The notes under the pieces: model-generated
Databases searched by the model: none
The model's input: the letters and a program-made list of their open reading frames with translations, nothing else
Told to the model about the DNA's origin: nothing
In this document: in pieces, positions 6,137 through 10,324 of the stretch
Layout of the letters: every line of letters begins with the position of its first letter
Position numbering within the stretch: position 1 is the stretch's first letter
DNA from: Trichormus sp. M33_DOE_039
GTDB lineage: Bacteria; Cyanobacteriota; Cyanobacteriia; Cyanobacteriales; Nostocaceae
Length of the DNA: 64,000 bases
NCBI GenBank assembly: GCA_015296085.1
Contig: DVDT01000105.1
Location: 1 to 64,000 of the forward strand
Reading direction: 5' to 3'
Translations under genes and position numbers: made by a program

Positions 6137-6432
6137 TAATGTGACAGGAAACTTATCTTGCTAAATTTCCAGATTTGCCCTTTTTGGCAAGCATTACAAG
6201 CCACTGTTTGAAGCTCAAAGTCAAAACAACCAAGAGCTTGTTCTGAACAAGCTTTCTTAGGGTGTACAGTACATTTTAGGCATAATCATTAGTGAAATAT
6301 TCACACTTATGATAGGGAATCTGATGTAATTTCCATAGAAAACCTATACCTTTTTTGGGAGTTGTCCAACTACTCCAAAGCAATAAAATCGTTATTGTCC
6401 AAGCAGACAAGGCACAAACAATTGTCGCCATC
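6137..6432 (-). pseudogene. frameshifted small membrane protein gene
   Basis: The reading frame from ATG 6432 encodes 51 residues: a hydrophobic N-terminal segment, then HQIPYHKCEYFTNDY, stopping at 6277. From that point the neighbouring frame continues the same kind of protein with LKCTVHPKKACSEQALGC to a stop at 6137. Adding one base after the TAT of Asp-Tyr (TATGCC to TATCGCC) would give a seamless NDYRLKCTVHP. This matches a Cys-rich cyanobacterial family I recognise. The whole product would be about 98 residues with one membrane helix. This is either a real inactivating deletion or a sequencing error. Confidence 0.7.
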
Positions 6433-6486
6433 AAAGAGTTAGATAAAAAATTAATAGGGTGTATTTACACCCATATAAAATACTTG

Positions 6487-7239
6487 TTAATTTTTTAGAT
6501 GACGAGCAACCAGTTGAGATTCTAGAACTGATGGCAGATGATATGGTTGCCAAAAATTTAACATTTGTCCACCAACTTGTTGCGGATAAAAATAGTGGAA
6601 AAAATGATAACCATTGGCACATTCCCAGAGATAATCTTGTGTTTTCAGTATTTTTAACCAGTCTTTTAATACAGGTGAATTAACAATTGGATCATTCTTG
6701 CTACCACAGATCATCATGGGCATAGAAACCCCACCTTTAGGTAACTCAGTTAACTTGAAGAGAGAGTGGAGAAGTGGGGTTTGTTCTAAATCCCTATCTA
6801 ATACTGCCATTAACTTCTTAGTAGTGTTATGGGGTTGCTCACCAAAGAGATGTCGAACGCTACTTGCTAATACCTGTTCACGACTCATTGTCAACACTTG
6901 TCTTTGCAGATAATAGTGGACATGCCAAGTATTTGCAGGTTGAGAGGCGACGGCTAATAAGGTCAGCGATCGCACTTTTTGCGGATAGCGACGTGCGAAG
7001 ATTAAAGCGATCGCACCTCCCGCACCATGACCTGCTAAGTGTACTGGATAAGAACAATCTGATAAAAATTCATCCAATAAATCTACAGCTTCTTCTATCG
7101 AACCACCTTCATCTTTACCGTGACGATATTCCCACTGAGCCACATTTATATATTGTGATAAATATTGCAGCAATGGTTTATCGAAACGTTGCAAAACAGG
7201 GCTAGAACTAACCCAAAGCACATCAAGATCATCTGACAT
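6487..7239 (-). CDS. alpha/beta-hydrolase-like protein downstream of flavodoxin (IsiC-like)
   Basis: A 250-residue alpha/beta-hydrolase-fold protein. The nucleophile elbow HLAGHGAGGAIAL (GHGAG, residues 70-74) has Gly where the catalytic Ser normally sits, although a candidate acid (SKNDPIV) and His (NGYHFFHY) remain. ATG 7239 gives MSDDLDVLW; an upstream in-frame start at 7269 would add 10 residues. It follows isiB on the same strand with a 93-bp gap. In Synechocystis the isiAB operon is followed by isiC, a hydrolase-like gene, so this is probably the equivalent. Esterase activity is doubtful without the Ser. Confidence 0.75.
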   Translation of the reverse strand: MSDDLDVLWVSSSPVLQRFDKPLLQYLSQYINVAQWEYRHGKDEGGSIEEAVDLLDEFLSDCSYPVHLAGHGAGGAIALIFARRYPQKVRSLTLLAVASQPANTWHVHYYLQRQVLTMSREQVLASSVRHLFGEQPHNTTKKLMAVLDRDLEQTPLLHSLFKLTELPKGGVSMPMMICGSKNDPIVNSPVLKDWLKILKTQDYLWECANGYHFFHYFYPQQVGGQMLNFWQPYHLPSVLESQLVARHLKN

Positions 7240-7332
7240 AAAGACCCTACATTTTTCAGATTTAAACATATCAGGAGACAGGTTACTAAAATTCCCTGTC
7301 GCCTGTCACCTATCAACTATTAGCTATGTATC

Positions 7333-7845
7333 TTACAAACCAAATTCTCGTTGCAACTGATTCACCCAAGCTTTAATGCGATCATCTGTTAAGTCAGATT
7401 GATTATCTTCATCAATCGCTAGCCCAACAAACTTACCATTTCTTAAAGCTTTAGAATCATTAAAATCGTAACCATCTGTTGACCAATAACCTACAGTTTT
7501 ACCACCGCGTTGAGAAATCTTTTCTTCCAGTATGCCAATTGCATCTTGAAAGTTATCTGCATAGCCAAGCTGATCACCAGTGCCAAAATAAGCAACCATC
7601 TTACCATTGAAATCTATCTCATCTAGTTCTGGAAAAAAGCCTTCCCAATCGCTTTGAACTTCACCAATATTCCAAGTCGGACAGCCCACAATTAGATATT
7701 GATATTCATCAAAGTCGGCAGTGTCAGCTTGGGAAATATCATGCAATGTGACTATATCACCACCAAACTGATCCCGAATTATTTCTGCTACAGATTCAGT
7801 TTTACCAGTTTGAGTACCGTAGAATAAACCAATTTTTTTCGCCAT
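7333..7845 (-). CDS. isiB: flavodoxin
   Basis: FMN-containing electron carrier that replaces ferredoxin after photosystem I when iron is scarce. The 170-residue product matches cyanobacterial long-chain flavodoxins in length. It has the phosphate-binding loop GLFYGTQTGKTES, the FMN-stacking Trp in CPTWNIGE, and the YFGTGDQLGYADNF loop. ATG 7845 (MAKKIG) has AGGT six bases upstream; ATG 7851 is the alternative. The gene begins only a few bases after the remnant of an isiA-like gene, suggesting that it still uses the old isi promoter, normally Fur-repressed. That regulation is inferred. Confidence 0.95.
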   Translation of the reverse strand: MAKKIGLFYGTQTGKTESVAEIIRDQFGGDIVTLHDISQADTADFDEYQYLIVGCPTWNIGEVQSDWEGFFPELDEIDFNGKMVAYFGTGDQLGYADNFQDAIGILEEKISQRGGKTVGYWSTDGYDFNDSKALRNGKFVGLAIDEDNQSDLTDDRIKAWVNQLQREFGL

Positions 7846-7853
7846 TTTCATAC

Positions 7854-8052
7854 CTAATATTTAAAAGAACAAACTACCATCGGCTGCGAGGTCTGAAACC
7901 GATCTATTTCAAATAAGGTGGTCGCACCTGCCCACAATTAAACCTGCATGTGCAACAGGCGCGTCTAACAGCCGCCCTGAAAGATTGCTTAACCGGGCAT
8001 TCCCTGACCACCAAGGAATCGATTCCGGAGTTTGGACAGCCATGTTGGTCAT
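7854..8052 (-). pseudogene. 5' remnant of an isiA/CP43-like chlorophyll-protein gene
   Basis: From ATG 8052 the frame encodes [20 protein letters not shown] and then [20 protein letters not shown]. This is the N-terminus and start of the first membrane helix of IsiA/Pcb-type CP43-like antenna proteins. The frame then closes at 7909. One frame over, the expected continuation [19 protein letters not shown] appears, ending at a TAG at 7854-7856. About 5 bases seem to be lost at the frame change. About 65 of the usual 340 or more codons remain, directly abutting isiB. Confidence 0.85.
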
Positions 8053-8145
8053 CGTGTCATGTCCTGAAGTTATCTAAAGTCAGCCCTTGCACTTATTGAA
8101 TATCTATATCAATAAGCTTTGGAAATATCCTACCAGATTATTGAA

Positions 8146-8163
8146 AATTTATTGCAATAAATT
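8146..8163. promoter_or_regulatory. perfect 18-bp AT-rich palindrome upstream of the isi region
   Basis: AATTTATTG followed directly by its reverse complement CAATAAATT. It lies 94 bp upstream of the start codon of the isiA remnant, in the leader region serving isiB. Iron-regulated isi promoters bind the repressor Fur at AT-rich palindromes, so this is a candidate operator. It does not closely match the enterobacterial Fur box, and binding is an inference. Confidence 0.35.
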
Positions 8164-8369
8164 AAAAATAAAGTTTTGTAAATGTGAGGGTATAGAACTG
8201 AGAAGACGAGTGGATAAGATTTCTAGAGTAGATCATTGGACAAATTTATTACTTCAGTTATCGCCATTAGTGATGCTATTAGTTGGCAATAAGTTGATTT
8301 TGTGTGCTAGATTCCGAAAGTAGTTATGAGCAATTGGTATTGTTGAATCGTAGAGTTTTAGGCTAAGTA

Positions 8370-8495
8370 GCCGTCATGAACTGCGTACATAAGAAAAGAT
8401 GAAAAAGTCTTTCCCTTACACCCCTACACCCCTTTTTCAAGTCAGCCGTCATGAACTGCGTACATAAGAAAAGATGAAAAAGTCTTTCCCTTACA
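8370..8495. repeat. 51-bp direct repeat, two copies 75 bp apart
   Basis: Positions 8370-8420 and 8445-8495 are identical, each starting GCCGTCATGAACTGCGTACA and ending in TTCCCTTACA. C-rich runs of the CCCTTACACCC type, common at the edges of dispersed repeats in this window, follow each copy. Confidence 0.9.
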
Positions 8496-8827
8496 TCCCT
8501 ATACCCTTACACCCTTACACCCCTTTTTCTAGCTAGAATATTTTCTACCTAGAGATGACTAACACACCGAATAAGTCTCCTCTAGAAAAGGCAATCAATG
8601 CAGCCTATTGGACAGAAACATCCAGAAAGCTTAGAAAGGTTAGAAGTTAGGTTGCAGTGGTTTTGCGATCGCTTTCACAAATTTTCTTCATCACGAGTGC
8701 CTTAATTTTTGTGTCTGTCTTAACTATCTGCCTGCCATTTTCCCCAGTAGACGATAACCTAGGAAGCAGCAAGGAGACTAGTCAATTCCAAATTCAAAAT
8801 TAAGAACTTCTGACTAATGACTTGATT

Positions 8828-10324
8828 ATGATATATTCGCTAAATTGCCAAAATTATATTAATGGTCAGTGGTTAGATGCTAGAGCAGAAAATATCCTAG
8901 CTAGTCATAACCCTGCTAATAAAACTGAGGTTGTCGCTACTTTTCCCCGTTCCCAAGTGGAGGATGTAGATATTGCGGTAGCAGCAGCTAGACAAGCTTA
9001 CCAACATTGGCGACAAGTTCCCGCCCCAGCTAGAGCGGAATACATTTTTCGTGTCGGAGAATTGTTAGCTGAACATAAGGAAGAACTAGCTCAGTTAATT
9101 AGTCGGGAGATGGGTAAACCCTTAACTGAAGCTAGGGGTGATGTACAAGAAGGTATTGACTGTGCATTTTACAGTGCTGGGGAAGGAAGGCGACTGTTTG
9201 GACAGACGACACCTTCGGAAATGCCCAATAAATTTGCCATGACAGTGAGAATGCCCATTGGGGTTTGTGCTTTAATTACTCCCTGGAATTTTCCTGTAGC
9301 AATTCCTTGCTGGAAAGCAATGCCGGCTTTAGTTTGTGGTAATACAGTAATTCTCAAACCTGCCGAAGACACCCCAGCTTGTGCAACTAAATTGATTGAA
9401 ATTTTCGCCGCCGCAGGCTTACCACCAGGAGTGATTAACTTGTTGCATGGGGTAGGTGAAGAAGTTGGGAAAGCTTTAGTTGAGCATCCAGATATTGATT
9501 TAATCTCGTTTACTGGTTCGTCTGAAACTGGGGCGTATGTGGGTGCAACTTGTGGACGCACTCACAAACGTGTCTGTTTAGAAATGGGAGGTAAAAATGC
9601 CCAAGTTGTGATGGAAGATGCAGACTTAGAATTGGCCTTGGATGGTGCAGTCTGGGGTGCATTCGGCACAACTGGGCAAAGATGTACGGCTACTAGTCGT
9701 TTGATTTTACATCGTGATATCAAAGAAAAATTTACTAGTATGCTGTGTGAACGTGCTAAAAAGTTACGTTTGGGTGCTGGTAATCATCCTGATACAGATA
9801 TCGGCCCAATCATTAATCACAGACAACAGCAAAGGGTAAACGAGTATATGAAAATTGCCCGTGAGGAAGGGGCAGAAATATTAATAGGTGGAGAAATTGC
9901 TACAGAAGGCGAGTTAAAACAGGGTTACTTTTTTCAGCCAACAGTTTTAGACAACGTTACACCAAAGATGCGGGTGGCTCGTGAAGAGATATTCGGCCCC
10001 GTAGTGGCATTAATTGAGGTGAATACATTTGAGGAAGCGATCGCTATCCTTAACGATACTAAATATGGTCTGTCTTCTTCTGTTTATACCCGCGACATTA
10101 ACCGCGCCTTTGCTGCTATGCGTGACATCGAAGCTGGTATTACCTACATCAACGGCCCAACTATTGGCGCAGAGGTTCACTTACCTTTCGGTGGTGTCAA
10201 GCAAACAGGTAACGGACACAGGGAAGCAGGAACTACTGCTTTAGATGTGTTCACAGAGTGGAAAAGCGTTTATGTGGACTTTTCTGGTAGTTTGCAACGC
10301 GCTCAAATAGATAACCGTGGATGA
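8828..10324 (+). CDS. NAD(P)-dependent aldehyde dehydrogenase
   Basis: A 498-residue ALDH-superfamily enzyme oxidising an aldehyde to the acid. Visible motifs are the oxyanion/NAD segment [13 protein letters not shown], the cofactor motif [10 protein letters not shown], general base Glu in [10 protein letters not shown], catalytic Cys in [11 protein letters not shown], and the late motif [14 protein letters not shown] 8828 (MIYSLNCQ) is chosen; a TTG six bases upstream is in frame. The overall look is of the piperideine-6-carboxylate/succinic semialdehyde type, but the substrate cannot be fixed. It stands alone and converges on the glycosyltransferase gene. Confidence 0.92.

Follow-up and report, generated by a model that had tools for sequence, protein, structure and literature searches.

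Accounts of IsiA and flavodoxin usually treat them as a single iron-stress response encoded by one operon. The closest described systems are outlined here as far as the available portions of the cited papers describe them. In Synechocystis PCC 6803 and Synechococcus PCC 7942 an isiAB operon carries a Fur-type iron-stress promoter with isiB downstream, and in Synechocystis the antisense RNA IsrR represses isiA (PMC8635728). The isi cluster of Nodularia spumigena CCY9414 runs from nsp37510 to nsp37450 and includes a CP43-PsaL fusion; a transcription start was mapped there 83 nt upstream of nsp37510, together with an antisense start at +426 of the first antenna gene (PMC3610870). Anabaena PCC 7120 has four isiA genes (PMC9938196) and predicted FurA boxes 231 and 277 nt upstream of isiB (alr2405; PMC4005646). 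Clustered isiA genes, their PsaL fusion and an isiB that has FurA boxes and stands away from isiA have thus already been described (PMC3610870, PMC4005646, PMC9938196). The literature searched, which left subscription papers mostly outside, yielded no description of isiA remnants preceding isiB and none of repeated one-way loss, and in the portion available of PMC5322553 isiA occurs in the reference list only.

Here we describe the isiB locus of Trichormus sp. M33_DOE_039 in a 64,000-nt stretch of DNA (contig DVDT01000105.1, positions 1 to 64,000; the window). As in PCC 6803 and PCC 7942, it has an iron-stress promoter with predicted Fur-type control and an isiB flavodoxin gene downstream; unlike in these strains, isiA is destroyed, and the ancestral operon would have held several antenna genes, one of them a CP43-PsaL fusion. 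With CCY9414 the window shares the promoter block, the flavodoxin and alpha/beta hydrolase genes and the ancestral gene order, but CCY9414 keeps its antenna genes, whereas the stretch corresponding to its antisense start is deleted in the window. The resemblance to alr2405 lies in a FurA-type box of nearly the same sequence a few hundred nucleotides upstream of isiB, at a similar distance, with no working antenna gene between; judging by the locus tags alr2405 and all4003 alone, isiB would stand apart from isiA in PCC 7120 as it does here. PCC 7120, however, keeps its four isiA genes, while in the window genome none was found and an isiA relic is visible. This feature is very probably a dead remnant of an iron-stress antenna operon of which the promoter and isiB have been retained.

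Results

An isiA1 relic lies in front of an intact isiB

The features of the locus are as follows.
8136..8154 (-), possible second FurA-type box, CAATAAATTTTCAATAATC
8092..8181 (-), isi promoter block, homologous to the block before isiA1 in intact operons (nhmmer profile 56.9 bits, E 2.7e-15)
8126 (-), projected transcription start
8091..8109 (-), FurA-type box ATATAGATATTCAATAAGT, inside a dyad (8116-8092)
7878..8052 (-), isiA1 5' relic, about 60 codons with a broken frame
7909..8052 (-), residual open frame of the relic, 47 codons from the ATG at 8052
7933..7937 (-), 5-nt loss shifting the isiA1 frame
7879..7885 (-), deletion junction, at a 7-nt repeat present at both breakpoints in relative G001
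7852..7877 (-), 3' end of isiA2/psaL (CP43-PsaL fusion) and isiB ribosome-binding region, from alignment with relatives
7333..7851 (-), isiB flavodoxin (Pfam Flavodoxin_1, E 4.2e-31), probable start codon at 7845
6487..7269 (-), isiC-like alpha/beta hydrolase (Pfam Abhydrolase_1), which follows isiB in intact clusters

The initial annotation had recognized an IsiA/Pcb-type 5' end at 7854-8052, and two profiles bear this out. The 47-codon frame matches positions 3-32 of 500 of the Pfam PSII profile (28.9 bits, cut-off 25, E 6.7e-7), and a DNA profile of the intact operon aligns through its positions 1-180 to about 8052-7878 (E = 2.7e-47). The CP43-like N-terminus of the IsiA/Pcb antenna family is present in the relic frame, its similarity to such N-termini being clear by both profiles. 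With 47 codons only, a full-length chlorophyll-binding IsiA/Pcb protein is absent at this locus; upstream of isiB there is no intact isiA (CP43-like, about 340 aa), only what matches profile positions 3-32, in a broken frame. The relic is most likely without function of its own.

The flavodoxin gene is intact and is under purifying selection (dN/dS 0.05-0.14 against G010, G012, G001 and G009). Its ATG at 7845 corresponds to the MSKKIG/MAKKIG start of relatives, in which the isiB orthologue adjoins isiA genes. Substitutions near the isiB start (-24 to +6) are absent from 7 of 11 close pairs of loci (one of the 7 has an indel) and number at most three in the others. An isiC-like DNA match lies downstream of isiB in 18 of the 19 relatives' loci compared, being missing in G023. 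An Rfam search of 6400-9000 returned a single weak, sub-threshold match, a Histone3 stem-loop at 6452-6497 at the end of isiC (19.6 bits against a gathering threshold of 34), which is probably a plain hairpin and perhaps a terminator.

Relatives carry the promoter block in front of two antenna genes

We compared 80 isiB loci from 79 genomes (G003 contributing two, the window counted as one, and L053 (G023:C4) excluded from all counts). The promoter block is present in 70 of them. In 54, here called close, the block starts within 2 kb of isiB, and in the 16 far loci it lies 2.0-2.8 kb upstream with antenna genes between; the 54 to 16 ratio is not a frequency because loci were picked by isiB rank and, in part, mostly for lacking isiA. 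The arrangement in 14 of the 16 far loci is promoter, isiA1 (339-344 codons; 179 in G009), isiA2/psaL (473-483 codons) and isiB, and CCY9414 (G170) shares this gene order. G032 and G166 differ in their second gene, an antenna gene of 357 codons that lacks the PsaL tail. In G009 isiB is followed by isiC and two more isiA genes.

Two further observations concern these loci. The isiA1 of G009 (L036, at -1982 from isiB) has an internal in-frame deletion, 179 codons remaining out of about 342, and is followed by a complete antenna gene; this may be erosion at an early stage. G003 has two isiB copies on different contigs (L043 and L044), one in a full operon and the other behind the promoter block only.

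The isiA1 relic has a frameshift and was probably joined to the end of isiA2/psaL by a deletion

Beyond the stop of the 47-codon frame, similarity to isiA1 continues in a shifted frame, owing to the absence of five bases around 7937-7933. This loss, proposed earlier as one of about five bases, was found at the expected place by alignment with isiA1 of G001, G009, G007, G110 and G012 (three full-length copies, the internally shortened copy of G009 and the relic of G012). The isiA1 match stops around 7878, and 7877-7852 is the end of isiA2/psaL, 25 of the 26 nt before isiB being identical, on a visual count, to the isiA2/psaL 3' end of G012. The shifted frame, also read by eye, stops 2 nt short of the ATG at 7851, or 8 nt short of that at 7845. 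The coordinates and reading given originally are thus right, except that the last 26 nt or so before isiB derive from the second antenna gene.

Between the isiA1 start and isiB of G001 one 7-mer occurs exactly twice, at -2302 and -34 (2268 nt apart), and the two copies coincide with the two places where similarity to the window breaks. The window has a single copy that differs from the G001 repeat at two bases. A single deletion of about 2268 nt (about 2.27 kb) at this 7-nt repeat would account for the junction and is the likely event; repeat-mediated deletion is likely rather than proven because the microhomology is read from a relative. The earlier proposal that a deletion removed most of isiA is supported as to the deletion, the block lying 241 nt upstream of isiB here against 2.0-2.8 kb in the far loci, but two genes were hit, isiA1 and most of isiA2. 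The loss extends further than the antenna gene first considered, of which only the isiA1 relic is left: past isiC, the window sequence aligns to G009 directly beyond its last isiA gene, and therefore the downstream isiA genes are gone too.

The ancestor would thus have had a FurA-type promoter followed by isiA1, isiA2 (the CP43-PsaL fusion), isiB, isiC and then more isiA genes. The deletion of about 2.27 kb, probably by short-repeat recombination, would have fused isiA1 around codon 60 to the last psaL codons, the 5-nt loss would have disrupted the isiA1 frame, and the downstream isiA genes would have been deleted as well. What was retained would be what flavodoxin needs, the FurA-box promoter and, at the opposite end, the ribosome-binding region of isiB.

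Antisense control may have disappeared with the deleted DNA. The Rfam IsrR model gave 11 matches antisense to isiA copies in three relatives, which are no proof of an antisense RNA because the model overlaps conserved coding sequence. In G001 the model lies at about +388 to +565 of isiA1 (converted by hand). IsrR-type control, if it exists in the family, would be absent in the window because the model region is well beyond the end of the relic.

The isi promoter block and a putative FurA box are retained

As proposed initially, isiB has been left behind the old promoter, the block at 8092-8181 being the homologue of the one before isiA1 in intact operons. The block was aligned with 24 other loci, and across these 25 loci only core positions are near-invariant. 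Its mean score is 50.5 bits in the 54 close loci and 48.7 bits in the 16 far loci, with a lean towards the close loci in that the profile was built from the same block-bearing loci that it scores, most of them close. In 11 close pairs the whole block is not clearly slower-evolving than isiB third positions.

The putative site ATATAGATATTCAATAAGT has two mismatches to AAATAAATATTCAATAAGT, the box predicted for alr2405 in the portion available of PMC4005646, and equally two to the all4003 box; none of 300 dinucleotide shuffles was as good. Judged by sequence, a Fur-type box with predicted binding is therefore present at the promoter. The candidate second box CAATAAATTTTCAATAATC departs from the published consensus at four positions, a fit that 1 of 300 shuffles equalled, and from the second PCC 7120 isiB box at six, which 48 of 300 equalled; it is thus weak by one of the two measures. 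The start site mapped in CCY9414 (PMC3610870, portion available), when carried over by hand on the block alignment, projects inside the block, at 8126 in the window.

As iron falls, FurA would leave the block and transcription would start near 8126. The first working gene of the iron-stress transcript would then be isiB, behind a leader of about 280 nt containing the dead antenna piece, and the cell would make flavodoxin in place of ferredoxin with no IsiA antenna. We infer iron induction of isiB, FurA binding, the transcription start and the selective reason from the DNA. The predicted fold of the leader RNA was no better than that of shuffles (z -0.51, 59 of 200 as good); a structured regulatory leader RNA is therefore not supported and was rejected.

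Upstream of the block, in the intergenic region towards an aldehyde dehydrogenase-like gene (named by eye), the window contains a 63-nt direct repeat (8369-8431 and 8444-8506, 97% identical, spacing 75). A 2022-codon frame separates the isi block from the aldehyde dehydrogenase gene in G010 (L034, -7050 to -982 from isiB); by eye it resembles a serine/threonine kinase that includes an ATPase part, and no such gene occurs at this place in the window.

Scars of isiA recur at isiB loci

We searched the region between block and isiB in the 54 close loci with the operon profile and found isiA pieces in 30 (E below 1e-3; match positions from this search run one base too high). Mononucleotide-shuffled versions of the 54 regions, which kept base composition only, gave no match. 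The 30 scarred loci show 27 different boundary patterns, with isiA1 5' and/or psaL 3' pieces in the right order. Among the close loci, 37 belong to genomes that lack near-intact isiA, and isiA pieces occur in 21 of those 37. Antenna loss is thus not unique to the window strain, relatives having scars of their own. Three of the 30 (G034, G114 and G160) retain a long antenna frame (343-488 codons), which makes them fusions or partial losses.

In the other 24 of the 54 close loci the operon profile detects no isiA piece, so loss there is deduced, not seen. That such loci are common would fit isiB with its own promoter as the old state, the isiA genes having been inserted between promoter and isiB in some lineages. 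We consider this order of events very improbable: the ordered isiA1 5' and psaL 3' pieces of the scarred loci point to a former isiA1-isiA2-isiB layout, and loci of that layout, PsaL fusion included, come from 8 genera scattered across the isiB tree (9 if the two genomes without a PsaL tail on the second gene are included).

The isiA1 start region is often what remains, in 24 of the 30 scarred loci as a piece beginning within the first 20 profile positions, and in the window it is open for 47 codons. It might therefore be a real small gene, or an IsiA-derived leader peptide still acting, for example in translational control of isiB. Such a frame should be kept among relatives, yet in the 23 loci with an isiA1 start piece (window included) a start codon is at the expected place in 17, the frames staying open for 9 to 488 codons, and absent there in 6, some of which have a later ATG. 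The short frame is thus unconserved, as the initial view of it as a fossil implied. Comparison of the 5' piece with isiB third positions in seven comparable pairs is divided. In G191/G221 and G010/G012 the piece differs less than half as much as the third positions, but in four other pairs it diverges about as much; G188/G194 was not counted, its value being unreliable because the two pieces are offset from each other (18 differences within 115 nt, compared with 17 across the entire 369-nt spacer). Over codons 1-36, 2-5 nonsynonymous changes separate the relics of the window's clade from intact G001, G009 or G007, whereas intact genes differ from one another by 0-1. These nonsynonymous and pair counts, small as they are, weaken the case for a small gene, and the leader fold, with its z of -0.51, also speaks against it. 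We regard a function of the 47-codon frame as improbable and treat it as a relic.

Some scarred loci have unusual residual genes. L078 (G034) and L074 (G114) each hold an isiA1/isiA2 hybrid gene (343 and 488 codons), which seems to have arisen by isiA1-isiA2 recombination within the similar 5' ends. L035 (G012; isiA1 start at -534 from isiB) and L089 (G021; -399) have single open frames of 174 and 112 codons, left by the deletions and leading from isiA1 into the sequence behind it; that of G021 continues into psaL-like sequence and that of G012 probably does likewise (first 90 residues seen). Either frame could be an expressed mini-protein.

No isiA was found elsewhere in the genome, and its loss probably recurred in the family

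The window genome (7.0 Mb, 116 contigs) is rated 100% complete. A PF00421 profile search of this draft assembly at E 0.001 gave three matches, of 928 bits, 446 bits and the relic. The first has the size and score of CP47 (psbB); the second we take to be psbC by the long lumenal loop in its translation. The search for an intact isiA elsewhere in the genome, suggested at the outset, thus found none at this threshold. A draft of this many contigs leaves room for the deletion and frameshift to be assembly or sequencing errors. This is hardly credible, since the sister genomes G010 and G012 are also without near-intact isiA, each with its own scars, and no further isiA piece is found in the window genome at E 0.001.

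Classification of 217 family genomes gave 89 with a flavodoxin hit and near-intact isiA, 54 with flavodoxin only, 3 with isiA only and 71 with neither. The 54 is an upper figure for isi-type isiB because the flavodoxin-only class includes other flavodoxins. Up to six isiA candidates were scored per genome, all candidates being scored in 27 genomes; a genome with two matches and unscored candidates could conceal an isiA, and a few genomes are incomplete. The skew of 54 to 3 has a sign-test p of 4e-13, ignoring kinship.

On a psbB tree of 41 of the 217 genomes (from the loci set where the place of psbB was given, plus G008), 13 changes of isiA state are required, well-supported branches forcing 11 of them, and the states cluster no more than shuffled labels do. 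If read as losses only, the tree has 15 separate groups without isiA by our own count, a number that regain of isiA by transfer would reduce. The isiB tree calls for 13 changes among the three states of close, far and absent block, and 8 of the 10 loci without a block form one separate clade in it. Both trees place the window genome, G010 and G012 in one clade, and on the psbB tree its neighbour G001 has isiA. The three scars of this clade differ, and therefore one old loss followed by separate erosion and separate losses both fit.

Discussion

From the isiA pieces, the kept block and the one-way skew of 54 to 3, we infer that the window is one case of a recurrent loss of the antenna in this family in which flavodoxin and its promoter are kept. 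The scars show that IsiA and flavodoxin are separable in the family and that losses go mostly in a single direction: among the 217 genomes it is common to find flavodoxin but no near-intact isiA and rare to find isiA but no flavodoxin, the former class including some flavodoxins that are not isi-type.

We advance only tentatively, as a possibility on the doubtful side, that shedding the antenna while keeping the iron switch for flavodoxin was a favoured and repeatedly evolved step. Deletions that moved isiB to the FurA promoter and removed the IsrR-paired DNA would then have been selected, decoupling the electron-carrier response from the costly chlorophyll-antenna response. The relics form a graded series of natural isi-operon deletion mutants with the promoter in place, and the worth of IsiA under iron limitation is therefore testable by comparing sister strains.
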